Below, one piece after another: positions 1,234 through 54,647 of a stretch of 64,000 nt of DNA. How positions within the stretch are numbered: the first letter of the stretch is position 1; each line of letters begins with the position of its first letter. Made by a program: the position numbers and the translations under genes. The DNA comes from Terriglobia bacterium (lineage in GTDB: Bacteria; Acidobacteriota; Terriglobia; UBA7540). The stretch spans positions 1-64,000 of the forward strand of contig DASTAW010000031.1 in the NCBI GenBank assembly GCA_035712365.1, given 5' to 3'. Below the pieces are notes generated by a model. That model did not search any database, was not told the origin of the DNA, and was given only the letters and a program-made list of their open reading frames with translations.

Positions 1234-3183
1234 ATGATTCAGCTTTCTTCAGGCGGTAAGCAGTTCGGACCCAAGGTACTGTTCGAAGGCCTCGACTGGC
1301 TTCTGACGCCGGGCGACCGCGTCGGCCTGGTGGGCGCGAACGGCACCGGAAAGTCGACCTTGCTGAAAGTGCTGGCCGGGCTTGAAACTCTGGATGTTGG
1401 CACACTCTCCACAGCCAGGGGCATCACCCGCGGATACCTTCCCCAGGACGGTCTTGAACTCGCCGGCCGCAGTGTGCTCGAAGAGTGCCTTTCGGCGTTT
1501 GGAAACCTGCTCGAAATGGAAACGGAGATTGAGGAGCTCACGCACCGCATGGCGGACCTTGACCCGGCGAGTGAGGAATACGCGCAAGTGGCCGAGCGTT
1601 ACCACGCCCTGGAGACGGAGTTCCAGCATCGCGATGGGTATTCACTGGAAGCTAGAGCGGGCGCAGTGCTCAACGGCCTGGGATTCTCGCGGGACGACCA
1701 AGCGCGGCTGACCGAGGAGTTTTCCGGCGGGTGGCAGATGCGCATCGCGCTGGCCAAGCTCCTGCTGACCAGGCCGAACCTTCTGCTGCTGGATGAGCCC
1801 ACCAACCACCTCGATCTGGAATCGCGCAACTGGCTTGAACAGTATCTCGAAGACTATCCACACGCCGTTGTTCTGGTGTCGCATGACCGCTATTTTCTCG
1901 ACGTCACGGTCAACAAGGTCGTCGAAATCTGGAACCGGCGCGCCTGGTTTTACGCGGGCAACTACGACCGCTATCTCACCCAGAAAGAAGAACGCAAAGC
2001 GCAGCTTGAGGCTGCTTACAGGAACCAGCAGGACCGTATCCATCATCTGGAAGTGTTCATCAATCGTTTCCGTTACCAGGCGACCAAGGCACGGCAGGTA
2101 CAAAGCCGGATCAAAGAACTTGAAAAGATCGAACGGATCGAGCTGCCGTCCGAGGAGAAAACCATTCGCTTTTCTTTCCCACAGCCGCCGGCAAGCGGGC
2201 GCCTGGTAGCGGAATTTCGTGAGGTCTCCAAGAGCTACGGCGATAAGCAGGTGTTCGCGGGCGTGAACTTCGCCATCAAGCGCGGCGACCGCGTGGCCCT
2301 GGTGGGCGTGAACGGAGCCGGCAAATCGACGTTGATCAAGCTGCTGGCAGGTGTGGAACCGGCGACAGCCGGCGAGACGCTCCCGGGTCACCATGTGGAA
2401 GTGGATTACTTTGCCCAGGACCAGTATAAGGCGCTCGACCCGGAAGCGCGCCTGATTGATGACATTGGGGGCGTGGCGCCGGCAGCGCTTAGCGGCCAGA
2501 CCCAACTTCGCACGCTGTTGGGAAGCTTCTTGTTTTCTGAGGACGAAGTCTTTAAGCGAGTCGGGGTGCTTTCCGGCGGAGAGCGCAATCGCTACGCCCT
2601 CGCGCGCATGCTGCTGCGTCCGGCGAATTTTCTGCTGCTCGACGAGCCTACCAACCACCTGGATCTGCGCGCCAAAGACGTTCTGCTGGAGGCGCTGGGA
2701 AAATACACGGGCACGGTGGTATTCGTTTCGCACGACCGCTACTTCATCGATCATCTGGCCACGCGCGTCTTCGAAATCGGCGGCGGAGAGGTCCACGACT
2801 ATCCAGGCAACTATGAGGACTATTTGTGGCAGAAAAATGGGCGGCCTCCACGCCCGGACGATACAAGGGCTGAAACACAGCCTGCCATGCCTGCCAATGC
2901 TAACGGAAATAAGAGCAAGGAAGAACAGGACATCGCGGCAAAAAGACTCAATCCAATCCTGGTTCGCCGAATGGCGGACCGCGGCGAGGAACTCGAAGAA
3001 GCTATCGCACGCGCGGAAGCGGAAATTGCCTCCTGCGAGCTCGAGCTGGCGAACTTCAGGAGCGCGGAGGGATCCATCCGCCTCTCGAGGAGAATTGAAG
3101 AATTGCGCCAGGCCATTGGCGAGATGATGCGCGAGTGGGGAGAGATTGAGATGTCCCTCGATGAATCCGCGGAGCAGAATTGA
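1234..3183 (+). CDS. ABC-F family ATP-binding protein
   Basis: A 649-residue soluble protein with two ABC ATPase domains and no membrane segments, the hallmark of ABC-F ribosome-associated ATPases (EttA/Uup/YheS group). Walker A motifs are GANGTGKST near residue 37 and GVNGAGKST near 357. Signature motifs are FSGGWQMR near 162 and LSGGERNR near 445, and both domains carry LLLLDEPTNHLD-type Walker B motifs. The linker is charged and helical (QDRIHHLEVFINRF). The C-terminus ends in a coiled coil of about 80 residues as in Uup/YheS. The frame stays open upstream to a GTG at 1192, but the ATG at 1234 (MIQLSSGGKQFG) starts where the family starts. ABC-F proteins rescue or tune translating ribosomes; the exact subfamily is uncertain. 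Confidence 0.9.
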   Translation: MIQLSSGGKQFGPKVLFEGLDWLLTPGDRVGLVGANGTGKSTLLKVLAGLETLDVGTLSTARGITRGYLPQDGLELAGRSVLEECLSAFGNLLEMETEIEELTHRMADLDPASEEYAQVAERYHALETEFQHRDGYSLEARAGAVLNGLGFSRDDQARLTEEFSGGWQMRIALAKLLLTRPNLLLLDEPTNHLDLESRNWLEQYLEDYPHAVVLVSHDRYFLDVTVNKVVEIWNRRAWFYAGNYDRYLTQKEERKAQLEAAYRNQQDRIHHLEVFINRFRYQATKARQVQSRIKELEKIERIELPSEEKTIRFSFPQPPASGRLVAEFREVSKSYGDKQVFAGVNFAIKRGDRVALVGVNGAGKSTLIKLLAGVEPATAGETLPGHHVEVDYFAQDQYKALDPEARLIDDIGGVAPAALSGQTQLRTLLGSFLFSEDEVFKRVGVLSGGERNRYALARMLLRPANFLLLDEPTNHLDLRAKDVLLEALGKYTGTVVFVSHDRYFIDHLATRVFEIGGGEVHDYPGNYEDYLWQKNGRPPRPDDTRAETQPAMPANANGNKSKEEQDIAAKRLNPILVRRMADRGEELEEAIARAEAEIASCELELANFRSAEGSIRLSRRIEELRQAIGEMMREWGEIEMSLDESAEQN

Positions 3184-3197
3184 CCCGGGGAAGCGGA

Positions 3198-3968
3198 TTA
3201 CCGATTGCGTAAGGCACGACGGTCTTTTCTGCCGAGAAGCCGGCTGAACCCTATTCTGAGGAAATCAAAATAGCGGTCGACCACGCGTTCCTTAAGCGGA
3301 ATGATGGCGTTGTCGGTGATGCGAATTTCTTCGGGGCACACCTTCGTGCAGCATTTCGTGATGTTACAGAATCCAATTCCCTCTGCGTTCTTCAACTCCT
3401 CCACACGATCTTCGATATCCATGGGATGCATATCGAGTGAGGCGACGTAGACAAAGAACCGCGGGCCAACGAACTGTTGATGCAGGCGATGATCGCGCAG
3501 CACGTGGCACACGTTCTGGCACAGGAAGCATTCGATGCACTTATGAAACTCCTGGATGCGGTCAACGTCCTCCTGGACCATCCGCCAGGTGCCATCGGGA
3601 AAATCCGGTTTGCGCGGCTTGAAAGGCTTGATCTTCTTCTTCACCTCATAATTCCATGAAACGTCCGTGACCAGGTCCTTGACCAAGGGGAAAGTCCGCA
3701 TGGGCTGGACGGTGATGGGCGCATCCAGCGGCAGTTGATTCAGGCGCGTCATGCACATCAGCTTCGGCATTCCGTTGATTTCCGCCGAGCACGACCCGCA
3801 TTTGCCAACTTTGCAATTCCAGCGCACCGCCAGGTCCTGCGCCTGTTTTGCCTGAATTTCATGAACCGCGTCCAGGACCACCATTCCCGGTGATATTTCG
3901 AGGCTGTAGTCCCGGAACTCCCCGCCACCGGAGTCGCCACGCCAAATCCTGAAGGTTGCCGTCGCCAT
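3198..3968 (-). CDS. sdhB: Succinate dehydrogenase/fumarate reductase iron-sulfur subunit
   Basis: A 256-residue protein that passes electrons from the flavoprotein to the membrane anchor of complex II. An N-terminal plant-type ferredoxin domain carries the [2Fe-2S] cysteines in CKVGKCGSCSAEING. The C-terminal half has CIECFLCQNVC ([4Fe-4S]) and CNITKCCTKVCPE ([3Fe-4S] plus fourth ligands). The ATG at 3968 overlaps the TAA of sdhA by one base (TAATG), so the genes are translationally coupled. It is the last gene of an sdhC-sdhA-sdhB operon on the minus strand. It converges on the ABC-F gene, with only 14 bases between the two stop codons. Confidence 0.95.
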   Translation of the reverse strand: MATATFRIWRGDSGGGEFRDYSLEISPGMVVLDAVHEIQAKQAQDLAVRWNCKVGKCGSCSAEINGMPKLMCMTRLNQLPLDAPITVQPMRTFPLVKDLVTDVSWNYEVKKKIKPFKPRKPDFPDGTWRMVQEDVDRIQEFHKCIECFLCQNVCHVLRDHRLHQQFVGPRFFVYVASLDMHPMDIEDRVEELKNAEGIGFCNITKCCTKVCPEEIRITDNAIIPLKERVVDRYFDFLRIGFSRLLGRKDRRALRNR

Positions 3969-5779
3969 TATTTCATCTCCTCGACGATCTGCTTGAGCTC
4001 TGCCGGCAATTCCGGGAGCGGCTTGCGGGCAATCTGCATTTTCCCGTCAGGCCCCTGGCGAATTATAAGATTGGATTTCCCGCTTGCATCGTCTCGGCCG
4101 GGATAATCGTCTCGGAAATGCGCGCCCCGGCTTTCTTTGCGTTCGATTGCCGCCCTGGTGATGGCTTCGGAAATCAGAAGAAGGTTCGAGAGGTCCAGTG
4201 CCGTGTGCCAGCCTGGATTGTATTCCCGATTTCCCACGACGCCCGCCCGGCGTCTTCTTTCGCCTAACTGTTCGATCACTTCCAGCGCCCGATGCATGTC
4301 TTCCTCCCGTCGCACGATTCCCACAAGGTCCTGCATGGTTTCCTGCAGGTCTCGCTGGATGAGGAAAGGACTCTCGCCTGATGGCCGGTCGAAGGGTTCA
4401 AGGGCCTGCCGCGCTGCCGCCCCCACCTCTTCGGCGCTCACTTGGCCTGCCTGATGCTCCTGGGCGAAAGCAGCGGCGTGGGCGCCCGCGCGCTTGCCGA
4501 AAACCAGCAGGTCCGAAAGCGAGTTGCCGCCCAGGCGGTTCGCGCCATGCAAGCCGGCGGCGCACTCGCCAGCGGCGAACAGGCCCGGCACCGTCGACAT
4601 CTGAGTTTCCGGGTGGACCCGCACGCCGCCCATCACGTAATGGGTGGTGGGGCCAACTTCCATGGGTTCCTTTGTGATATCGATATCTGCAAGCTGCTTA
4701 AACTGGTGATACATGCTGGGCAGTTTTCTCTTGATGTGTTCGGCCGAATGCGGCATTTTTTCCCTGATCCATGCGATATCCAGGAATACACCGCCGTGCG
4801 GACTGCCGCGGCCTTCCCGGACCTCCCGCACAATCGCCCGCGCGACGTGATCGCGGGTGAGCAGTTCCGGCGGACGGCGCGCCGACCTGTCACCCTGGGT
4901 GTATCTCCAGCCCTCCTCGGCGTTATCTGCTGTTTGATTTTTGTAGAGAGGAGGGATGTCGTCAAACATGAACCGCCGGCCGTCCTTGTTCTTGAGAGTC
5001 CCTCCTTCACCGCGGACGCCTTCGGTCACCAGAATGCCGCGCACGCTCGGGGGCCAGACCATTCCGGTGGGATGGAACTGCACGAATTCCATGTCTTTGA
5101 GTTCCGCTCCGGCACGATAGGCAAGGGCCAGGCCGTCCGCCGTATACTCCCAACTGTTGCTGGTGATCTTATAGGCGCGTCCGATTCCGCCCGTCGCCAG
5201 GACCACGGCCCTGGCATGGTAGAGCTGGAAGCGCCCCCGCTCGCGGTCATAGCCGAAGGCCCCGACGACACGGTCACCGTCTTTCAGCAGCGTGATGACG
5301 ACGCACTCCATGTGAACGTCGATCCCTTGGTGGATTCCGTAGTCCTGCAGGGTGCGGATCATCTCGAGACCGGTGCGGTCCCCCACATGCGCCAACCGCG
5401 GATATTTGTGGCCCCCGAAGTTGCGTTGCAGGATCTTGCCCTGGGCAGTCCGGTCGAACACCGCCCCCCACGCCTCAAGCTCACGAACGCAGTCCGGCGC
5501 TTCCTGGGCATGGATCTGGGCCATGCGCGGCTCATTCAAGTACTGGCCGCCGCGCATTGTGTCCGCGAAATGGACTTTCCAGTTGTCGCGCTCGTCCACG
5601 TTGGCAAGCGCCGCCGCAATTCCTCCTTCTGCCATCACGGTATGGGCCTTGCCGAGCAAACTTTTGGTGACGATCCCCACGGACACGCCCGCTGCCGAGG
5701 CTGCGATGGCCGCGCGAAGCCCGGCTCCTCCCGCGCCAATCACCAGCACGTCGTGCTCGTGAACCTGGTATTCCGGCAT
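3968..5779 (-). CDS. sdhA: Succinate dehydrogenase/fumarate reductase flavoprotein subunit
   Basis: A 603-residue FAD subunit that oxidises succinate to fumarate. The dinucleotide fold is at the N-terminus (VIGAGGAGLRAAIAAS). The likely covalent FAD site is the His in KAHTVMAEGGIAAAL, and the active-site region includes the FGGHKYPR and HPTGMVWP motifs. The frame is open 29 codons further upstream, but that part lies inside sdhC. The ATG at 5779 starts MPEYQVHEHDV and overlaps the sdhC TGA by one base (TGATG), so it is the supported start. The same one-base coupling recurs at the sdhA/sdhB junction, implying stoichiometric expression. Confidence 0.95.
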   Translation of the reverse strand: MPEYQVHEHDVLVIGAGGAGLRAAIAASAAGVSVGIVTKSLLGKAHTVMAEGGIAAALANVDERDNWKVHFADTMRGGQYLNEPRMAQIHAQEAPDCVRELEAWGAVFDRTAQGKILQRNFGGHKYPRLAHVGDRTGLEMIRTLQDYGIHQGIDVHMECVVITLLKDGDRVVGAFGYDRERGRFQLYHARAVVLATGGIGRAYKITSNSWEYTADGLALAYRAGAELKDMEFVQFHPTGMVWPPSVRGILVTEGVRGEGGTLKNKDGRRFMFDDIPPLYKNQTADNAEEGWRYTQGDRSARRPPELLTRDHVARAIVREVREGRGSPHGGVFLDIAWIREKMPHSAEHIKRKLPSMYHQFKQLADIDITKEPMEVGPTTHYVMGGVRVHPETQMSTVPGLFAAGECAAGLHGANRLGGNSLSDLLVFGKRAGAHAAAFAQEHQAGQVSAEEVGAAARQALEPFDRPSGESPFLIQRDLQETMQDLVGIVRREEDMHRALEVIEQLGERRRRAGVVGNREYNPGWHTALDLSNLLLISEAITRAAIERKESRGAHFRDDYPGRDDASGKSNLIIRQGPDGKMQIARKPLPELPAELKQIVEEMK

Positions 5780-6558
5780 CAGAAGATCCTCCAGTCCGTC
5801 CATATTCCCATCGAGCACATTCGCACGTAGAAATCCGCAAAGGCTACCCAGAACAGACTGAGCCATGCGTATCTCATGTGGTACATGTTCAGCGCGCTGA
5901 CACAGCTATAGGCTTTTCTGCGGGCCGGTGACAACGCGGCCATCAGTCCGCCGGTCAGATGGCGAAGCGAGTGGCATCCCAGCGTGTAGCCCCCCAGCAG
6001 AATCACATTGATGAGCAGCACAAGGCTCCCAACGTGGACACCGAAGTGGCCGTTGAACCAGAAGCCCCGCCAGGCGTCGGTTGCGAGGAGCACGAGGAAA
6101 AGCAACGCGAGGTAGAGAAAGTAACGATGAAAGTTCTGCAGGATTAAGGGCAACGATCGCTCGCCACGGTAGCACTTGCGCGGCTCCCCCACTGCGCATG
6201 AGGGCGGGTCAGCCCAGAAGGCCTTGTAATAGGCTCCCCGGTAGTAGTAGCAGGTGACGCGAAACCCTCCCGGCGCCCACAGGATCAGGATGGCTGCAGA
6301 AAAGGGGAACCAGCCTGGGTACCATGATGGCTTGGCGCCGAACCATGCGTGCGCGGGATCGCCGAACAATTCAGGCGAGTAGAAAGGCGAAAGATAGGGA
6401 CCGAAGCGGTAATGCGTTCCCTGGAGGGCCGCCCACGTTGCGTAAACCACAAAAGCCGAAAGGCCCAGGAACACCATCAACGGCTGCACCCACCACAGGT
6501 CCCTTCGTGACGTCTGGCCAAACCCTGCCCCGGCAATGGGCATGTTGATATCCGCCAT
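5779..6558 (-). CDS. sdhC: Succinate dehydrogenase membrane anchor, Sdh1-like single subunit
   Basis: A 259-residue membrane protein with about five hydrophobic helices, encoded where complex II anchors are expected. It is not a classical SdhC/SdhD pair nor the usual cytochrome b558 type. The block LSPFYSPELFG, the segment TCYYYRGAYYKAFWADPPSC and LILQNFHRYFLYL resemble, from memory, the single anchor of mycobacterial Sdh1. Cysteines are at 103, 121, 129, 195, 219 and 248; histidines in helices include 144, 171, 175, 196 and 200. The ATG at 6558 (MADINMPIAG) is preceded by a purine-rich GGGGGTCTTAAG. An upstream ATG at 6594 would add 12 residues and has no better support. First gene of the operon. 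Confidence 0.85.
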   Translation of the reverse strand: MADINMPIAGAGFGQTSRRDLWWVQPLMVFLGLSAFVVYATWAALQGTHYRFGPYLSPFYSPELFGDPAHAWFGAKPSWYPGWFPFSAAILILWAPGGFRVTCYYYRGAYYKAFWADPPSCAVGEPRKCYRGERSLPLILQNFHRYFLYLALLFLVLLATDAWRGFWFNGHFGVHVGSLVLLINVILLGGYTLGCHSLRHLTGGLMAALSPARRKAYSCVSALNMYHMRYAWLSLFWVAFADFYVRMCSMGIWTDWRIF

Positions 6559-41336: not shown

Positions 41337-41933
41337 GTGGATATTTCAGTGTCGGCGGGCTTCAGCGAGGCCGGGTTGAGCGATCGAAATCGGCTGGATC
41401 GAGCGAGTTCATGCTGGACCGAAGAGGCATTTCAGCGCTTCTTCCTGGAAAATTATGTCCGGCTGTCGGGTGTGGTCTTTCGCATCGTTGGCGACTATTC
41501 GCGGGCCGAAGAACTTACGGACGAAGCCTTTTGGAGGCTCTACCGGCAGCCCTGCGGCGGCAACAATTTTAACCCGAGCGGGTGGGTTTACCGCACCGCC
41601 AGCCGCCTTGCAATCGACAGCTTGCGCGCCGAATCGAGGCGAGCGCGATTCGAGCAGGAGATAGGAACGTCGCTGGTTGCAGGCACTGGGCTGGACCCGT
41701 TGGATGCTGTTCTTGAAGCCGAGAGGCGCACGCAAGTGCGCAAGGCCCTGGCATTTCTTCGGCCTCTCCACGCGGAGCTTTTGGTCCTGCGGGCGAGCGG
41801 GTTCTCGTACCAGGAATTGGCCGAGACATTGAACGTGAAGGCAGGGTCAGTTGGCACCCGGCTGATTCGGGCGGAAGCGGCCTTTCGCAAATCCTATATG
41901 AAACTCTATATGGGAAATAAGGAGGAGTTATGA
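41337..41933 (+). CDS. ECF sigma factor
   Basis: A 198-residue extracytoplasmic-function sigma factor. Region 2: FLENYVRLSGVVFRIVGDYS, RAEELTDEAFWRLYRQP, GWVYRTASRLAIDSLRAESR. Region 4: ALAFLRPLHAELLVLRASG and FSYQELAETLNVKAGSVGTR. The start is a GTG at 41337 preceded by a weak purine stretch. Its stop overlaps the anti-sigma gene by four bases (ATGA at 41930). The pair precedes an ABC exporter on the same strand, the probable target. Confidence 0.88.
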   Translation: MDISVSAGFSEAGLSDRNRLDRASSCWTEEAFQRFFLENYVRLSGVVFRIVGDYSRAEELTDEAFWRLYRQPCGGNNFNPSGWVYRTASRLAIDSLRAESRRARFEQEIGTSLVAGTGLDPLDAVLEAERRTQVRKALAFLRPLHAELLVLRASGFSYQELAETLNVKAGSVGTRLIRAEAAFRKSYMKLYMGNKEEL

Positions 41934-43111
41934 AATGCCTTACTGACCAGGTTCTCCGAGCCCTGATTGACCAGGAGGCGCAGGACCTGGAGCGCGAAGG
42001 TGCAAACCGGCACCTCGCCGAGTGCGCGGACTGCCGCGCCCGACTGGAACGCATGTCGCGCGAGACCGCGGAAACAGGAAACATCCTGGCGTCACTGGCG
42101 CCCGGAAAACTGACGGAACCGGCGGAGGCGTTTGAGAGGTTCCAGGCACGGCTCGCCTCCGATGGCAAGGCGCCAGCCCGGCCCGGTTTTCTGAGGGGAT
42201 TCTTCTCCGTACATCCCCTTCCCGCCTGGAGCGCCCTGGCCTCGACGGCGCTTATCGTCGTGCTCCTGATGTTTGCCCCGGCGCGAAGCTGGACCCAGCA
42301 CATCCTGGCGATGCTGCGCGTCGAGAAAGTGACCGTCGTTCCCCTCGATCTTAAATTCGACAAGAACAGTGACACTCAGGAGCTCGTCCGGAAGGTTATC
42401 TCCGACGAAGTGACAGTGACACTCTCCGCGGGCAAGCCGCAGTTCGTTGGCGATGTTTCGCAGGCAACCCAAATGGCGGGCTTCCCGGTGCGCACTTTCG
42501 CCGATATGCAGGAGGCTCCGAAAATCGGAGTGGTTGGCGAGCAGTCTTACGTTATGAAGCTGGACCAGAGCCGCCTCCAGGCAATCGTCGACAGCATTGG
42601 CAAGGCGGACTTGCAGGTTCCGGAGAGCATCAACGGGCAGATGATTGCCGTGCACATTCCCAAATCCGTTTTTCTCCGCTACGGGAACTGCTCTGAGAAG
42701 CGCAACGCATCGAAGCCCGGTGCGGACGATCAGCGCAAGCCTACTGACACCTCCGGCTGCATCATGTTTGCGGAGGTCCCAAGTCCCGTTGTCAGCGTTC
42801 CGCCCGAACTGAATATCGGTCAACTTTTCCAGATCGCTCTCCAGGCGGGAGGCATGAGTCCCGAAGAAGCCCAGGCCTTCTCCTCGAAAGTGGACTGGAA
42901 ATCGACGCTTGTCGTGCCGATACCGAGACGCGCAAGCTCTTATTCTGAAGAGCTGGTGGACGGCGTGACGGGAAACCTGATTATGGGCAAGGGGTTTCGA
43001 GAGCAGCGGCCCGAATACACTCTGATCTGGGTAAAGAATGGAATCATCTATTCCATTCACGGGTCCGGCGGGCCTGAACGGGCCAAAGCCCTTGCAAGGG
43101 CTTTGAGCTAA
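41930..43111 (+). CDS. Transmembrane anti-sigma factor with zf-HC2 domain
   Basis: A 393-residue protein. Residues 1-~45 form a zinc-finger HC2 domain, NRHLAECADCRARLERMS (HxxxCxxC). A membrane helix is at ~95-115 (AWSALASTALIVVLLMFAP). The remaining ~275 residues are extracytoplasmic, with a DUF-like sensor region (VTVVPLDLKFDKNSDTQELV and others) that I do not recognise. It is translationally coupled to the ECF sigma gene, whose product it should sequester. It is unusually long for this class, so the extracytoplasmic part is a good candidate for the signal sensor. Confidence 0.85.
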   Translation: MKCLTDQVLRALIDQEAQDLEREGANRHLAECADCRARLERMSRETAETGNILASLAPGKLTEPAEAFERFQARLASDGKAPARPGFLRGFFSVHPLPAWSALASTALIVVLLMFAPARSWTQHILAMLRVEKVTVVPLDLKFDKNSDTQELVRKVISDEVTVTLSAGKPQFVGDVSQATQMAGFPVRTFADMQEAPKIGVVGEQSYVMKLDQSRLQAIVDSIGKADLQVPESINGQMIAVHIPKSVFLRYGNCSEKRNASKPGADDQRKPTDTSGCIMFAEVPSPVVSVPPELNIGQLFQIALQAGGMSPEEAQAFSSKVDWKSTLVVPIPRRASSYSEELVDGVTGNLIMGKGFREQRPEYTLIWVKNGIIYSIHGSGGPERAKALARALS

Positions 43112-45142: not shown

Positions 45143-46045
45143 TCACCCCTGCAAGAGCGGAGTGATGGGACCACTCACAGCGGCCCGGGACTCCCCGCCA
45201 TTTAGGGCGGTTTGCAAGGCAGGCTCGAGCCCCTCGGCAAGCTCGCCCATTTCGTGCTGGCCGAGGTTTGAAACCACAAAACCGAAATACCCGCCCACCT
45301 GGAAGCCGGCGACACTCATTCCTTCGAGTTGCTTCTCGTAAAAATGGACGTTGCCGAGCGACTTCGCAGTCACAAATCGCCCCGTAGGCAGGTTTTCGCC
45401 ATCCCTCCTGGTAAGGATCACCGAGAGCATCGTACCCTGGCCTCGAGCGATGAAGTGCACATACTTGCGCGGGCTGCCTGGAACGCCACAGATGTGGGCC
45501 TCGAGCACCTGAAAGCCTGGAAGCTTCTTTTCCACAACCGGAAGCAATTCGGCGTATTGCGGCCCAAGCTTTTCGCGGAGCACTTCGGGCGGATTGGCGA
45601 CATCCGGATAATTGTGGCCGCGAATGGCGCAATGAAGATGGTCTGAAACGCCAAGCTGCAGGACGCTGGCCACCATTTGCCTGGCGTGTTCCAGCCTCAA
45701 CCACTGCTGGCCCGCAACACCCGCAATCACGATCATCGCAGCACCTGCCAGCGCCAGCGCCCATGTGGGTGCGCGGGCCGTCCAAAAGGGCCGTGATTGG
45801 GCTTTTTTCAGGCGCTGATGAATGGCCACGCCGAGTTGCTCCGGCGCTGACAGCCGCCCGGCGGCCCGCTGCAATGCTTCCCGGACCCGCAGGCGTGACT
45901 TCAGTTCGCTAGAGCAGGTTACGCAGTTCTCGAGGTGCCGCAGCATTTCGTCCGTTGTTTCCACCAACAATTCGTTGCTGAGGTAGGCATCCAACTGCCG
46001 GCAGGTACGCTCACACTGTCTCGAATCGAAATTCAGCACGTTCAT
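45143..46045 (-). CDS. Zinc-type anti-sigma factor
   Basis: A 300-residue protein. The N-terminal domain contains CERTCRQLDAYLSNELLVET and the zinc motif HLENCVTC (HxxxCxxC), marking a ZAS/zf-HC2 anti-sigma factor; such clusters can respond to disulfide stress. A membrane helix is at ~92-112 (PTWALALAGAAMIVIAGVAG). The C-terminal ~190 residues are extracytoplasmic and unfamiliar (LGVSDHLHCAIRGHN, FQVLEAHICGVPGSPRKYVH), with two more cysteines. The ATG at 46045 overlaps the sigma stop (ATGA). It is the last gene of the unit with the Met-rich peptide and molybdoenzyme. Confidence 0.85.
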   Translation of the reverse strand: MNVLNFDSRQCERTCRQLDAYLSNELLVETTDEMLRHLENCVTCSSELKSRLRVREALQRAAGRLSAPEQLGVAIHQRLKKAQSRPFWTARAPTWALALAGAAMIVIAGVAGQQWLRLEHARQMVASVLQLGVSDHLHCAIRGHNYPDVANPPEVLREKLGPQYAELLPVVEKKLPGFQVLEAHICGVPGSPRKYVHFIARGQGTMLSVILTRRDGENLPTGRFVTAKSLGNVHFYEKQLEGMSVAGFQVGGYFGFVVSNLGQHEMGELAEGLEPALQTALNGGESRAAVSGPITPLLQG

Positions 46046-46602
46046 GCGGGCTTCCCCTCGTCGGCGTCATTCGCGCTGTTTCCGATGCCATAAGATTTCG
46101 CCACCCCGGCCAACTCTTCACGGAGCAGTTTTCTTCCCCGGCTCAATCTTGACATCACTGTCCCCAGCGGGAGCTTCAAAGTTTCTGCAATCTCCTTGTA
46201 TGAAAATTCTTCCACGTCTGCCATGACAACAACCTCTCGAAAAGCTGGTGGAACGTTATCGAGAGCGGCGAGGATCTCTTCGTCCCTGATTTCCTGCGGT
46301 ACGGGAGTCTCGGCCGCCATGCTGTCCTGGTCTGTGAACGTTTCTTCAAGCGAAGACTTCAAGGACCGCCTGCGAAGATGGTGGAGACGATGGAAGAGGA
46401 TACTAAAAAGCCATGCCTTGCAGTTGGTGCCGGGTTCAAAACGGTGAAAGGACTTCAGCGCTTCCAGGTAGACGTCCTGCACAAGGTCCTCCGCCTCCGC
46501 CGGGTTATGAGCCAGGAACTTCGCGGTCCTGTACAGGGCCGTGAGGTGTGGCATGGCGGCGGCTTCAAAATCGCCTAAACCGGCTGTTGACTGAAAGAAC
46601 AA
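46042..46602 (-). CDS. ECF sigma factor (RpoE/SigR-like)
   Basis: A 186-residue ECF sigma factor. Region 2: LTALYRTAKFLAHNPAEAED, LVQDVYLEALKSFHRFEPGT, NCKAWLFSILFHRLHHLRR. Region 4: LDNVPPAFREVVVMADVEEF and SYKEIAETLKLPLGTVMSR. The sequence is of the type regulated by zinc anti-sigma factors, and one is encoded by the overlapping downstream gene. It is separated from the upstream Met-rich peptide gene by 78 bases that include a GC hairpin. By position it probably controls the cytochrome/molybdoenzyme/peptide genes. Confidence 0.9.
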   Translation of the reverse strand: MFFQSTAGLGDFEAAAMPHLTALYRTAKFLAHNPAEAEDLVQDVYLEALKSFHRFEPGTNCKAWLFSILFHRLHHLRRRSLKSSLEETFTDQDSMAAETPVPQEIRDEEILAALDNVPPAFREVVVMADVEEFSYKEIAETLKLPLGTVMSRLSRGRKLLREELAGVAKSYGIGNSANDADEGKPA

Positions 46603-46636
46603 TTCGACTCACCGCCGCTGCAGCTCTGATGGAAAT

Positions 46637-46657
46637 GGTGGGGCGTCGGGCCCCACC
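46637..46657. terminator. Intercistronic hairpin between Met-rich peptide and sigma genes
   Basis: GGTGGGGC (46637-46644) and GCCCCACC (46650-46657) form an 8-bp perfect stem with a 5-base loop. On the minus strand it lies 24-44 bases after the stop of the Met-rich peptide gene. Only ATTTCC follows, so termination would be partial. It could raise the peptide-to-sigma transcript ratio. Confidence 0.5.
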
Positions 46658-46680
46658 TTTCCGGGCCTGGAGTCTCCCTT

Positions 46681-46938
46681 TTACTCCTTCGGTTGGTCCA
46701 TCTTATCCTGGTTCTGCATCTTGTCGTGCTTCATTTTGTCTTTGGCCATCTTGTCTTTCTTGTGCTTCTTCTCCTTCTTATCCATCTTGTCGTGGCTCGC
46801 CATCTTTTGATCGCTCATTTTGTCGCCGGACTGCATTTTGTCGTCCTGAGGCTGTGCCAGTGCCACCCCGGTCACCCTGTTGGCGACGACCATGCTCATA
46901 CAAAGGGCCATGGCCAGAATCGTGATTCGCTTGATCAT
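46681..46938 (-). CDS. Periplasmic Met-rich MXKDX-repeat peptide (MrpX-like)
   Basis: An 85-residue precursor with a signal peptide (MIKRITILAMALCMSMVVAN) likely cleaved around ALA-QP. The mature ~57 residues are built from irregular MxxDK-type units (for example DKMAKDKMKHDKM) and contain 8 Met, 17 Lys and 11 Asp; every methionine follows a lysine. This matches the pentapeptide MXKDX repeat family. In Azospira a peptide of this kind is oxidised sacrificially by hypochlorite and reduced again by a YedY-type enzyme. The AAAAGGAGAAG ribosome-binding site is strong, and it sits 37 bases after the molybdoenzyme gene. Confidence 0.82.
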   Translation of the reverse strand: MIKRITILAMALCMSMVVANRVTGVALAQPQDDKMQSGDKMSDQKMASHDKMDKKEKKHKKDKMAKDKMKHDKMQNQDKMDQPKE

Positions 46939-46975
46939 ACTTGCTTCTCCTTTTCGATTTCTTGAAGTTCAGAAC

Positions 46976-47917
46976 CTAGAGTCCCACATACCAGTCATAT
47001 CCACGCTCGGCCCAGTAATCCGCGGGCCGATCGCTCGAATACCGAATCAATCCAATGCGCTTGATGTTCTTCACGCCATACTTCACCGGAACCACCAGCC
47101 GCAGCGGCGCGCCGTGCTCCTGGGTAAGCGGCGCTCCGTTCTGCTCGTAGCAGAGCAGGGTCTGAGGGTGCAGCATGCTTTCCATATCCAGCCCCACGTA
47201 GTAGCCGCCGTCCGGAGTTGCCATGCTGACGTAGCCCGACAGGTCCTCCACACGACCGAGGCTGAACGCGCCGCCGGTTCGCGTCCGCGGCGGGAAGGCC
47301 TTCATGAAATCGGTAAAGCGAGCGCCGGCCCATTGCACGATCACGCTCCAGCCCTCGATGCACTTCAATTCCGTCGTCATGTCTACTCTCGGAAGCTTCC
47401 GAATGGCGTCGAGGCCGAGCATCAGCGGGCCGTTGCCGAATGCGAGCCCCTCGACGCGAAGTTTCCAGGCCGCAACATCAACGTCTTCATCGAGACCAAC
47501 GTCGCCGTTCACCCGATCCGAGCTCACCTGGCTCGCGTTGAACGTCCGCGAAAGCCGGTGCTCGCTGAAAAATCCGCGGGCCAGCCGTTCATTCAACTCC
47601 AGGGTTTTACGAAATGGCCAGGGAACATCGCCTGTTTCAGGGCGGGTCGTCAGCCAGCCGAACGCTCCGATTCCGGCGGCCAGGCCGGCCCCCCACAGAA
47701 GAAAGCTGCGGCGGGATCGCTGCCGCATGCGCCGGCGTACCTGGCGGTTCCAGTCTTCAATTTCAGAGGAGTCGGGCGCAGTCAGCGCTCCCGGCGCAGA
47801 AGTCGTTGGAGTCTCTTCCGCCTTGCCCGCTTCAGGTTCCTCCGCGGCCACGTTGCCGGCGGCGTTCAGAATAGGCTCCGTCACCAACTCTTCGGGCTCG
47901 TCCTTCCCGCTATTCAT
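46976..47917 (-). CDS. Molybdopterin-dependent oxidoreductase (YedY/MsrP-like)
   Basis: A 313-residue enzyme from the ATG at 47917 (MNSGKDEPEELV). A charged cytoplasmic-type N-terminus (~60 residues) precedes a Tat-like signal (RQRSRRSFLLWGAGLAAGIG), an unusually late position. The sulfite oxidase-fold domain follows with the molybdenum-binding cysteine in TELKCIEGWSVIVQWAG and the block QEHGAPLRLVVPVKYGVKNI. MsrP enzymes repair methionine sulfoxide in periplasmic proteins. The start overlaps the cytochrome gene by eight bases. The long N-terminal extension may interact with the membrane partner. Confidence 0.85.
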   Translation of the reverse strand: MNSGKDEPEELVTEPILNAAGNVAAEEPEAGKAEETPTTSAPGALTAPDSSEIEDWNRQVRRRMRQRSRRSFLLWGAGLAAGIGAFGWLTTRPETGDVPWPFRKTLELNERLARGFFSEHRLSRTFNASQVSSDRVNGDVGLDEDVDVAAWKLRVEGLAFGNGPLMLGLDAIRKLPRVDMTTELKCIEGWSVIVQWAGARFTDFMKAFPPRTRTGGAFSLGRVEDLSGYVSMATPDGGYYVGLDMESMLHPQTLLCYEQNGAPLTQEHGAPLRLVVPVKYGVKNIKRIGLIRYSSDRPADYWAERGYDWYVGL

Positions 47918-48635
47918 AGTTCGCTTCCTTTGAGGAAACCAGTTCGTAGCCGCTGACCATCGCGCGGAAATTATTCCAGCCCGCCCGAACCACCTGGGCG
48001 ATGTGGACCACAAAGAAGAGCACGTAGCCGCAAGCCAGCAGAAAATGTTCAAAGCGCGCGGCGGAGTAACCTCCCAGTAAAGCCGTCAGCCAGCCGAGTT
48101 GCTCAGGTTTGTAAATCGCCAACCCCGTAACGACCGAGCCGACACCCATCAGGACGACGCCGGTGTATGCAATCTGCTGCGCCCCATTAAATTTGCGCGC
48201 GGGCAGATGCCCCTTCCAGAGATGCAGGTCGTGGAGGGCGACAAGTATGGCTTCACGGAACGAGCGCCTGTTCGGAACGAGCTGGCGCCATTCCCCCGAA
48301 AACACCGTATAACCGACGTACAACACCCCATTGAGAACGAAGAACCACATGAAGAAGAAGTGCCAGGCCATTCCCTTGGCCAGGTGGTAACTGACGCCGA
48401 ACGTGCTGTAAAAGCCCTCAGGAAAAAATTTGAAGAGCGTGAAGGAACCGAGGCCGACACGATAAACGTCATTGGCCCAGTAGATCCACAGACCGCTCCA
48501 GATCATCACGGCCAGCAGGGGAAAATTGACCCAATGGAACCAGCGGACGGCCAGAGAATGTTTCGCCCGCATTTCAAGCCGCCCCAAGCCCTCGTCCACA
48601 GATGGCTTGCCACCCGGATTGTTTCCTGCTCCCAT
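47910..48635 (-). CDS. Membrane cytochrome b partner (cyt b561/hydrogenase-b type)
   Basis: A 241-residue membrane protein with about four to five helices and histidines suited to bind two hemes: VRWFHWVNFPLLAVMIWSGL, YHLAKGMAWHFFFMWFFVLN, RFEHFLLACGYVLFFVVHIA. It belongs to the b-type cytochromes that feed quinol electrons to periplasmic enzymes, not to the ferric-reductase-like MsrQ family. Since its stop overlaps the molybdoenzyme start, it should be that enzyme's electron donor. The ATG at 48635 may be too far upstream; MRAKHSLAVRW at 48572 is an alternative. Confidence 0.82.
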   Translation of the reverse strand: MGAGNNPGGKPSVDEGLGRLEMRAKHSLAVRWFHWVNFPLLAVMIWSGLWIYWANDVYRVGLGSFTLFKFFPEGFYSTFGVSYHLAKGMAWHFFFMWFFVLNGVLYVGYTVFSGEWRQLVPNRRSFREAILVALHDLHLWKGHLPARKFNGAQQIAYTGVVLMGVGSVVTGLAIYKPEQLGWLTALLGGYSAARFEHFLLACGYVLFFVVHIAQVVRAGWNNFRAMVSGYELVSSKEANYE

Positions 48636-48642
48636 ATCTGGG

Positions 48643-48672
48643 TAATACCGGGCCAGGGCGAAATTATTCCCC
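48643..48672 (-). promoter_or_regulatory. Candidate ECF-type promoter before the cytochrome gene
   Basis: On the minus strand, GGGGAAT (48672-48666), then 17 bases, then GTATTA (48648-48643). GGGAAT is the -35 element of many ECF/SigR-type promoters; the -10 is weaker. It would place the transcript start next to the annotated ATG at 48635, favouring the downstream start at 48572. Tentative. Confidence 0.3.
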
Positions 48673-52292: not shown

Positions 52293-53379
52293 CTTAAAGT
52301 GCTCGATGATGTCGCGTCGAGCGCCCACGATTGTGCTAAGTTCCGAAGAGCGAATGACCTTAGAGAGCATGGTCCGTTCTGCTTCCGCCGCCCAGCGGGA
52401 TGTGCTGCGATCCCGTATTGTGTTGCTGGCCGCTGAAGGCCAGCGGAACGATCAAATCCAGGAGGCGCTGGGCGTCTCCAAACCCGTGGTCATCAAGTGG
52501 CGGCGACGCTTTGCCCTGGATCGCCTGCCGGGACTGGTGGACGAGCCGGGCCGAGGGCGCAAACGAAAATACGACGCCGCCCTTCGCCATCGGATTGCCG
52601 CCACCGCTTGCACGACGCCTCCCGAGTCCGTGGGGACTCACTGGAGCGTTCGCACCCTCGCCCGGCATCTGGGCGTGGGGGTGGCCGTGGTCCGGTCGGT
52701 CTTGTCGTCGGAATCCCTCCAGCCCCATCGCTTCCGATACTGGAAGGACTCTCCCGACCCGGAGTTTGTGCCCAAGATGCTGGCGGTGGTCGGCTTGTAC
52801 ATGCAGCCGCCCGAAAATGCGGTCGTGCTCTCGGTGGATGAGAAGACGTCCATCCAGGCCCTGGATCGAACTCAGCCGCGTTTGCCCCTGAAACCGCATC
52901 GCATCGAAAGGCTCAGTCACGAATACAAGCGCCACGGCACGGCTTCGCTGCTGGCCTCGTTGGAAGTTCATAGCGGCCAAGTTCGCGCTGAATCCATCCG
53001 GCGCAACAACAGCGTGACGTTCATCCGTTTTCTTCGGCGACTTCTGAACGCCTATCCGACTCAGGAGCTTTACATCGTCGCGGACAACGGCTCCTCGCAT
53101 CGGAGCAAGAAAACCCTGGCCTGGGTCGCCAAGCAGAATCGCCTTCATCTCACTTTCACTCCGACGCACGCCAGTTGGCTGAACCAAATCGAGATCTGCT
53201 TCGACATCCTGACGCGCAAGGTGGTCCGGCGCGGCATCTTCACGTCACGCCAGGAACTGGTCGAGCGGCTAATGAGCTTTATCCATGCCTACAACAAGGA
53301 GGCCCGACCTTTTCAATGGACTTACACGGGCAGCCCGCTCGCGGCATGATTAAGTCAACGCATTTGCAGCACGCAACAC
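52251..53379 (+). mobile_element. IS630-family insertion sequence, 1129 bp, complete
   Basis: Terminal inverted repeats start GTGTTGCGTG at both ends (52251-52279 and 53351-53379; 23 of 29 positions match, with TTGACTTA near the inner end). TA flanks both sides (52249-52250, 53380-53381), the target that IS630/Tc1-mariner elements duplicate. One intact transposase gene fills the interior. The element looks recent, with no internal stop codons. Confidence 0.9.
52306..53349 (+). CDS. IS630-family transposase
   Basis: A 347-residue transposase. The N-terminal ~130 residues contain two helix-turn-helix motifs (DQIQEALGVSKPVVIKWRRR and VRTLARHLGVGVAVVRSVLS). The DDE catalytic triad is visible: Asp178 in VVLSVDEKTSIQAL, Asp260 in YIVADNGSSHRSKK and Glu296 in HASWLNQIEICFDIL. 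The length is usual for single-frame IS630 elements. There is no frameshift, so it should be active. The ATG at 52306 lies 55 bases from the left end of the element; the second ATG at 52309 is equally possible. Confidence 0.93.
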   Translation: MMSRRAPTIVLSSEERMTLESMVRSASAAQRDVLRSRIVLLAAEGQRNDQIQEALGVSKPVVIKWRRRFALDRLPGLVDEPGRGRKRKYDAALRHRIAATACTTPPESVGTHWSVRTLARHLGVGVAVVRSVLSSESLQPHRFRYWKDSPDPEFVPKMLAVVGLYMQPPENAVVLSVDEKTSIQALDRTQPRLPLKPHRIERLSHEYKRHGTASLLASLEVHSGQVRAESIRRNNSVTFIRFLRRLLNAYPTQELYIVADNGSSHRSKKTLAWVAKQNRLHLTFTPTHASWLNQIEICFDILTRKVVRRGIFTSRQELVERLMSFIHAYNKEARPFQWTYTGSPLAA

Positions 53380-53411
53380 TAGGAAGAACGGCTACTCCAA
53401 TCGCGTACCTT

Positions 53412-54647
53412 TCACAACGCCGGTCGAAGGGAGAGCGACGCGCCTTTCTCCCATTCCTGAAGCATACGTTCCCCTATTTTAGAAAACTCGGGATTCTGGG
53501 CGATGTAGGAGCGTGCCTCGTTCGCAGTCTGAGAAATGGCCTCGTCGATTTGGCCAAAGATCAGCTTGATTCGGGACGGTGAGCTTCCGAGCCGAGTTTC
53601 GCCGAGCCTGTGAAGTTCCTTAGCGCTCGGCCACCGGGTTGTACCGTTAAGCGTTAGCGCCATGCTGTCTTTGGGCAAGTAGACGGAGGTGGTTACAAGA
53701 TCATAGACAGGTGACAGCCTCGCTTCACCGAGAACTTCGTCATAAATGATTCCGAAATCCTTCAAGTGCGCATCACCGTTGCGGAGGGCACAATTGACCG
53801 AAATCAGAGTGAACAGCCTTTCCATGTCTTCGTTGACGTGCGTGGAATTCGCGAACTGCTGGAAACGCTTCATGATCGACCTCTCGTAGCTTCCACGGTA
53901 CTTCTCGTCTGTCCTTCGAGCATTCAAAACACAGAAATCTTCAAAACCACGATACGTACCGTCCGGCCGAAGGTCAAAACGGTCGATCACCAGTGCCGCG
54001 CCATCCTCAGCCAGCCGGTAAGGCGGAACCTCAAGTCCGCACTTCTGCGCCACCGCCAGGCAGAACCGCTCATTCGTGGCGAGTTGCGGATATTCGACTG
54101 TGTCCCAGAGTTTCACGATGTGAGTAGCACCCAGATAGCTTTGGGAGAGCCGCGACCTTGTGTGCCTCAGGGTTGCGGAGGCTTCTTCATCGCGTATAAG
54201 AATTTTGGGCTGTACGCCACTAATGCCGGAAAATGTGGCAAACTTATCGATTAAGTAGCGAAATAGATCCCCGTCACGCCGCCGTGCCAGGATTTCATCC
54301 ACTGACTGAAACGGAACTTCCTCTTGCAGATGCTCCTTCTCGCCCGTATACCGAATGCGGCCCACCTGCGAACGGCCAACGATAGAGATCAGGTCAAAAT
54401 CGTCGAACGTGCCCGTCGCCTTCGCGAAGGCCAGGCGCAGCCGCTCGCGTAAGACACCCTCAGGCAGATTCATCTCAAAAATGGGAGGCAGACCGAAAGG
54501 AATATCCCAGGAAGGCAATCTGACGGGCATGGTGACGGACACCGCTCGCCCAGCCGGTGTGTCCGGCGAGTAAGCAAAGGAACTGCCACGATCACCAAGC
54601 CTGTCAAGCAGACCGGCTGCAGAGCCGTCGCTCCAGACCTTAATCAT
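53412..54647 (-). CDS. hipA: HipA family serine/threonine kinase toxin
   Basis: A 411-residue HipA toxin. The N-terminal domain has the usual couple region (MPVRLPSWDIPFGLPPIFEM, LPEGVLRERL). The kinase core includes the GISGVQPKILI ATP loop, LVIDRFDL, the catalytic loop NCALRNGDAHLKDFG (Asp292) and the metal-binding SPVYDLV (Asp316). Such kinases phosphorylate glutamyl-tRNA synthetase or related targets and cause dormancy. The gene overlaps hipB by four bases and runs from it. Its 3' end is only 33 bases from the IS630 element, which may have trimmed neighbouring DNA. Confidence 0.92.
   Translation of the reverse strand: MIKVWSDGSAAGLLDRLGDRGSSFAYSPDTPAGRAVSVTMPVRLPSWDIPFGLPPIFEMNLPEGVLRERLRLAFAKATGTFDDFDLISIVGRSQVGRIRYTGEKEHLQEEVPFQSVDEILARRRDGDLFRYLIDKFATFSGISGVQPKILIRDEEASATLRHTRSRLSQSYLGATHIVKLWDTVEYPQLATNERFCLAVAQKCGLEVPPYRLAEDGAALVIDRFDLRPDGTYRGFEDFCVLNARRTDEKYRGSYERSIMKRFQQFANSTHVNEDMERLFTLISVNCALRNGDAHLKDFGIIYDEVLGEARLSPVYDLVTTSVYLPKDSMALTLNGTTRWPSAKELHRLGETRLGSSPSRIKLIFGQIDEAISQTANEARSYIAQNPEFSKIGERMLQEWEKGASLSLRPAL

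Follow-up and report, generated by a model that had tools for sequence, protein, structure and literature searches.

Several precedents are known for the control of methionine repair by extracytoplasmic function (ECF) sigma factors, namely BcrS/BcrXQP in Brucella (PMC8315932), sigmaE/MseR with msrAB in Neisseria (PMC2893595, PMC3240639) and RpoE2/MsrAB in Haemophilus (PMC7907618). The ECF16 systems of Azospira suillum (SigF/NrsF-MrpX-YedY1/YedZ1) and Brucella melitensis (BcrS/AbcS-BcrXQP) combine an ECF sigma factor and its anti-sigma factor with an MXKDX-type peptide, a YedY-type molybdoenzyme and a membrane b-haem partner (PMC8315932, PMC4623255, PMC5748585). Parts of similar types are encoded in a stretch of 64,000 nucleotides from a Terriglobia bacterium of the Acidobacteriota (contig DASTAW010000031.1, positions 1 to 64,000, hereafter the window), where they form a five-gene minus-strand operon of a soil bacterium in the order cytochrome, molybdoenzyme, peptide, sigma factor and anti-sigma factor (45143..48635). 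This operon is probably autoregulated and part of a small ECF-sigma regulon repairing methionine sulfoxide outside the cytoplasm.

All five open reading frames (ORFs) were recovered where they had first been described, including the overlaps of 8 bases between the cytochrome and molybdoenzyme genes and of 4 bases between the sigma and anti-sigma genes. From Pfam and NCBIfam profiles, the products, all encoded on the minus strand, are a b561-type membrane cytochrome and putative quinol-linked electron donor (47910..48635; PF01292, Ni_hydr_CYTB), an MsrP/YedY-like molybdoenzyme with a signal of the twin-arginine translocation (Tat) type (46976..47917; PF00174, Oxidored_molyb), a secreted Met/Lys/Asp-rich, MXKDX-like peptide as candidate sacrificial oxidant sink (46681..46938; TIGR02953 match below cut-off), an ECF sigma factor (46042..46602; Sigma70 r2 and r4) and an anti-sigma factor of the CHCC zinc type with an RseB/MucB-C-like extracytoplasmic domain (45143..46045; weak zf-HC2/RsrA match). 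The five-gene order is also found in a congener (L107) which, together with the clustering of peptide genes beside the enzyme pair described below, argues that the gene set did not come together by chance. Between the peptide and sigma genes, folding energy reveals a strong RNA hairpin (46631..46662, minus strand; minimum free energy of -34.9 kcal/mol over a 91-nt stretch, z = -2.0), in which a clear U-run is absent and which could possibly serve as an attenuator or as a protector of the mRNA end; a search of 40-54 kb of the window against Rfam returned zero matches.

The putative ECF promoter at the operon head (GGAATA-N15-GGTATTA, 48643..48670, minus strand) was recognised by motif conservation and is the strongest of the new lines of evidence. 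Comparison of the regions 5' of the cytochrome gene yielded the motif GGAATA-N15-GGYATT(A), exact just upstream of this gene in the genome of the window (G000), in its congener G002 and in G025. With 13 positions and no mismatch allowed, the operon-head site is the sole match in the 4.67 Mb genome. In its 12-position form, the exact motif is present at three sites of this genome, namely the window operon, an msrB-msrA operon and a site within a coding sequence, the latter (G000:C3:57054) being rejected as a promoter for its position within a coding frame of 1092 aa; in G002, it is present at two sites, namely the window-type operon and msrB-msrA. The second operon, a predicted target of the sigma factor (L226, G000:C59:36500-42500, 1580-3070), encodes a Tat-signal MsrB and a lipobox MsrA, both above curated cut-offs, downstream of the exact motif, an arrangement kept in the congener (L227). 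Since the promoter is common to the window operon and the exported msrB-msrA genes, the motif indicates that a single, autoregulated regulon serves the repair of methionine sulfoxide outside the cytoplasm, the function being thereby no longer deduced from gene neighbourhood alone. Among 20 sigma loci, an exact or one-mismatch motif is found at the sigma gene or operon head in 13, when shuffled sequence gives 1 such site per ~800 kb; in more distant relatives, it stands at most about 155 bp away from the start of the sigma ORF at L148, L150, L151, L152, L154, L156, L157, L159 and L060, and at the operon head in L149. Around the msrA and msrB genes of 14 genomes, the motif is exact in G000 and G002 only, with one mismatch at the exported MsrA of G034 as well as at msr copies of G107 and G121; in G034, which has the sigma/anti-sigma pair and no cytochrome match, the motif at the sigma gene is exact.

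The molybdoenzyme carries PF00174 alone, without a Mo-co_dimer domain, and its residues N109, C186, E188 and W190 are invariant (the last three in 24 sequences). With E. coli MsrPQ it shares the Oxidored_molyb fold, a Cys-x-Glu-x-Trp-Ser motif (CIEGWS, as compared with CVEAWS or CVEGWS in MsrP, all fitting CxE[AG]WS for the molybdenum ligand) and a membrane haem partner, but it scores 88 bits against the MsrP model NF003767, below the curated cut-off of 207, and belongs to a separate clade. In a maximum-likelihood tree obtained by a quick method with no bootstrap, this clade is sister to a proteobacterial clade including the enzyme of Rhizobium acidisoli L194 (SH-aLRT 89), whose members are also accompanied by a b561-type cytochrome; both clades adjoin MsrP (SH-aLRT 89) and SoxC stands apart (100). 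On the question raised by the original prediction, whether the enzyme groups with MsrP or with sulfite dehydrogenases, the tree places it on the MsrP side, away from SoxC. The closest fold to the predicted structure (pLDDT 79) is E. coli YedY (1xdy/1xdq), and sulfite dehydrogenases score just behind, so that the fold alone cannot separate the two; an identity as sulfite oxidase or dehydrogenase (SoxC, SorA, SorT) is disfavoured by the separation from SoxC and the missing dimer domain. No canonical MsrP scoring over the curated cut-off is encoded in the genome of the window or in the congeners G001 and G002. At the level of the class, such an MsrP is present in 87 of 121 genomes, G000, G002, G025, G052, G059 and G121 being among those without it; mutual exclusion of the operon and canonical MsrP is not claimed, since the relatives are clustered and the two occur together in G038 and G060.

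Regarding the cytochrome, only PF01292 is matched, with H34, H92, H197 and H211 invariant across 21 relatives; the Pfam search gave no match to the ferric-reductase-like MsrQ domain PF01794, and a sequence search of the PDB gave no useful match. Because the annotated ATG (48635) lies only ~8 bases past the putative -10 element, translation may start further downstream, at GTG 48599 or ATG 48572. That the cytochrome is unlike MsrQ, as originally proposed, holds true; as a mark distinguishing the locus from SigF/NrsF systems, it fails. The clusters of R. acidisoli (L194: NrsF and SigF, divergent to MXKDX, cytochrome b and molybdoenzyme), the parts of which correspond to the bcr locus of Brucella (PMC8315932), and of Methylobacterium (L103: MXKDX, SigF, NrsF, MsrB, MsrA, cytochrome b and molybdoenzyme) both carry b561-type cytochromes of the family found in the window, the cytochrome type of SigF/NrsF systems being judged here from these two clusters. 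Hence, the effector core is shared, with a YedY1-like molybdoenzyme of a sister clade, and the regulator makes the difference. While the anti-sigma factor of the window is a one-segment CHCC protein with an RseB-like domain, that of the ECF16 systems is the six-helix NrsF; while its sigma factor is nearest to SigR/SigH, those of L194 and L103 match NF009188/NF009165; and the promoter GGAATA-N15-GGYATT differs from GTAACC-N16-CGAA (PMC3511200), as does the gene order within one operon. An independently assembled version of the known system, as first suggested, is therefore only partly borne out, the enzyme core being shared with the SigF/NrsF/MXKDX clusters of L194 and L103 and the regulator differing.

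The mature peptide contains, in agreement with the first description of a secreted product, 8 Met in 57 residues, together with 17 Lys, 11 Asp and 3 His, no Cys and no aromatic residues, and its match to the MXKDX model TIGR02953 is weak (30 bits, cut-off 41). In 76 related loci that were scanned, 18 exported Met-rich peptides were found, 15 of which are encoded no more than 250 bp from the enzyme pair and on its strand, when a share of 2% is expected (binomial tail 5e-23, a value that overstates independence since the loci are related). With 13 of 51 full-flank loci having one, such a peptide appears to be an optional rather than a constant part. The types are diverse, including secreted DKM repeats in Acidobacteriota, upstream-encoded lipoproteins in Planctomycetota, a 197-residue form in Opitutae (L065) and HGKM repeats in Chthonomonadaceae (L035). 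At nine loci, mostly of planctomycetes (L042, L048, L050, L051, L056, L057, L064, L070 and L084), the gene for a Met-rich peptide with a lipobox-like signal lies directly 5' of the cytochrome gene and represents a tethered version. Because low-complexity sequence evolves easily and these peptides differ greatly, repeated recruitment would be a simpler account than common descent.

The nearest curated models for the regulators are Streptomyces SigR/RsrA and Mycobacterium SigH/RshA. The sigma factor is best matched by TIGR02947 (SigR/SigH) and the 300-aa anti-sigma factor by the RsrA model, both scores being below the equivalog cut-offs (144 vs. 252 bits and 31 vs. 62.5 bits, respectively). The zinc ligands C11, H37, C41 and C44 are invariant in six of six relatives and occupy residue numbers identical to those in RsrA, by which the anti-sigma factor proves to be zinc-type as claimed, with the full CHCC set that redox sensing requires in RsrA; the N-terminal Cys11 of RsrA is required for oxidation-induced sigma release (PMC4960319). 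The -35 element GGAATA fits the GGAAYR consensus of M. tuberculosis SigH (PMC4803200) and the -10 element is similar to GTT, with spacing one base shorter; M. tuberculosis SigH also controls msrB, as the sigma factor of the window is predicted to do. Unlike in these systems, the predicted targets are extracytoplasmic and the anti-sigma factor is membrane-bound with an outer domain. By inspection, one hydrophobic segment (~94-115) is followed by an extracytoplasmic domain with invariant D135, H136, C139, H184, C186 and H197 (DHxxCA / HxC / H). A low-confidence model of this domain (pLDDT 61 overall, higher in 150-280) resembles RseB (Foldseek E 1.2e-3; Z 9.9 and rmsd 2.3 over 96 residues with VIA-align), RseB/MucB C-terminal domains occupying the top six rows (Z 9-9.9) and the next reaching Z 7.5. 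The anti-sigma factors of L028 and L035 are short, apparently soluble and RsrA-like with CHCC. With Neisseria sigmaE/MseR and Haemophilus RpoE2/HrsE, the system has in common an ECF sigma factor, a zinc-type anti-sigma factor, exported MsrA/MsrB and a very small regulon as well as, for Neisseria, autoregulation of its own operon, but their sigma operons are described without molybdoenzyme or Met-rich peptide and the Haemophilus anti-sigma factor is short and cytoplasmic.

Among the named relatives with enough flank, the cytochrome gene stands beside the molybdoenzyme gene in 64 of 66. The original prediction was to be doubted if relatives kept the sigma/anti-sigma pair apart from the other genes, and the outcome is divided, as most enzyme pairs are unlinked to it, yet the linkage recurs in several genera and a second phylum (L028, L031, L035, L036, L078, L107, L108 and L155). 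All five parts are found again in Chthonomonadaceae, where L035:5455-9106 encodes the sigma factor, a short RsrA-like anti-sigma factor, a TlpA-like thioredoxin frame, the cytochrome, the molybdoenzyme and a Met/His-rich peptide. At L111 (G059) and L113 (G052), an anti-sigma gene follows the enzyme genes with no sigma gene between or beside them. Besides, on enterobacterial plasmids, namely a conjugative E. coli IncF plasmid (L191, locus 2061-6061) and one of Rahnella (L106), an operon for cytochrome b, molybdoenzyme and MXKDX-like peptide is divergent to a two-component system, and many plasmid records of E. coli and Klebsiella match the molybdoenzyme.

Taken together, the promoter tie to exported MsrB/MsrA, the placement of the molybdoenzyme on the MsrP side, along with its CxEGWS motif, the clustering of peptides, the lack of canonical MsrP and the recurrence in L035 argue for methionine repair, and the defence against methionine oxidation originally predicted gains support from the first two. 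Several observations weigh against this reading. The sigma gene is within 2 kb of the enzyme pair in just 2 of 51 full-flank loci, and the motif was not found at L031, L035, L036, L155 and L158 among the 20 sigma loci (L028 and L078 also lack it, their contigs stopping before the upstream region). The genes behind the exact motif in G052 and G059 encode glucose dehydrogenase and NDH-2 (type II NADH dehydrogenase) rather than methionine repair functions, and several sigma/anti-sigma relatives adjoin a GH63/MGH1-like hydrolase or other genes, so that the regulon appears to vary by lineage and the regulator not to be dedicated to methionine repair everywhere. In addition, H2O2, diamide and singlet oxygen elicited no response from Neisseria MseR, the Cys set of which is that of RsrA (PMC2893595), and in anti-sigma factors bound to the membrane the zinc motif may have a structural role (PMC7406223). 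As for the hydrolase (~880 aa), it recurs near sigma/anti-sigma relatives or the motif at L148, L150, L156, L159, L224 and L225, the glucose dehydrogenase and NDH-2 genes of the latter two being also near it.

At the sequence level, gene content, overlaps, promoter conservation, motif-level regulon, enzyme clade, zinc ligands and domain architecture give the basis for a model in which inducer, sensing step, electron flow, substrate and sacrificial role of the peptide are inferred. At rest, the sigma factor would be held by the membrane-bound zinc anti-sigma factor. The latter would be altered by an oxidant, which could be hypochlorous acid or a reactive species of that kind, and the change would occur either in the CHCC zinc site, by analogy with RsrA, or in the RseB-like outer domain with its Cys/His sites. 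The sigma factor would then be freed to transcribe from GGAATA-N15-GGYATT promoters both its own operon, from cytochrome b561 to anti-sigma factor, and the genes for exported MsrB and lipoprotein MsrA. The cytochrome would hand quinol electrons to the molybdoenzyme, the substrates of which would be the methionine sulfoxides of periplasmic proteins and of the Met-rich peptide, and the re-reduced peptide would thus act as a rechargeable oxidant sink. More tentatively, the anti-sigma factor might be a two-compartment redox sensor, whose cytoplasmic CHCC switch is coupled by a single membrane segment to an RseB-like outer domain reading the outside oxidant directly through Cys/His sites of its own, and which drives a dedicated regulon where the quinol-powered molybdoenzyme recharges the Met-rich peptide and MsrA/MsrB repair other proteins; we consider this extension less likely than not.

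Met-rich motifs are able to bind Cu(I), and the operon could accordingly be viewed as a metal defence, where copper or a different soft metal is bound by the peptide, which is Met/His-rich in some relatives, the Cys/His sites of the anti-sigma factor serve as metal sensors and secondary damage is handled by the oxidoreductase pair. The HGKM repeats filling the L035 peptide and the conserved DHxxCA / HxC / H pattern of the outer domain would suit such a role, as would the Caulobacter SigF, which has a YedY under its control and is responsive to heavy metals, dichromate among them (PMC3511200). Against this, the second motif-bearing operon is msrB-msrA and not a metal exporter, the operon of the window includes no metal transporter, and its peptide has no Cys, only 3 His and isolated DKM units, which leaves a metal function unlikely.

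Slightly less likely still, the cytochrome and molybdoenzyme would form a general extracytoplasmic reductase or dehydrogenase for another substrate, the peptide and regulator being loosely attached accessories. The conservation across phyla of the pair alone (64 of 66 loci) and the place of the enzyme in its own clade, 88 bits against an MsrP cut-off of 207, are what such an enzyme would be expected to display, but Met-rich peptides of varied sequence and type recur beside the pair in many phyla, and the MsrP-like CxEGWS motif and the motif-level co-regulation with MsrA/MsrB speak for methionine sulfoxide. As for the locus belonging to the known hypochlorite system SigF/NrsF (ECF16), its anti-sigma factor having diverged, the three effector types are indeed the same and the enzyme clades are sisters, but this account is already contradicted by the one-segment zinc anti-sigma factor, the sigma factor of the SigH/SigR model and the different promoter, and is highly improbable.

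Elsewhere in the window, another and unrelated ECF sigma factor gene and a large putative anti-sigma gene (41337-43111, plus strand) lie upstream of an ABC transporter. By inspection, a transposase-like ORF adjoins a HipA-like kinase ORF at 52306-54647. Positions 61-88 are identical to a stretch at G000:C33:207523, which suggests a repeat at the contig end.

Returning to methionine repair, the locus is a new combination of known effectors with a known style of control, the regulon of which is predictable from sequence. Scavenging of oxidants by a rechargeable Met-rich peptide is known from a few proteobacteria. The enzyme pair, with Met-rich peptides of seemingly independent evolution, extends here to Acidobacteriota, Planctomycetota, Armatimonadota and further groups, and at least three regulator types are connected to it, namely SigF/NrsF, a two-component system and a SigR-like sigma factor with a zinc anti-sigma factor. 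Through the promoter, a single switch would command both the quinol-driven route and the MsrA/MsrB route of repair, and the chimeric anti-sigma factor provides a case in which to ask whether a zinc anti-sigma factor can report oxidation beyond the membrane.

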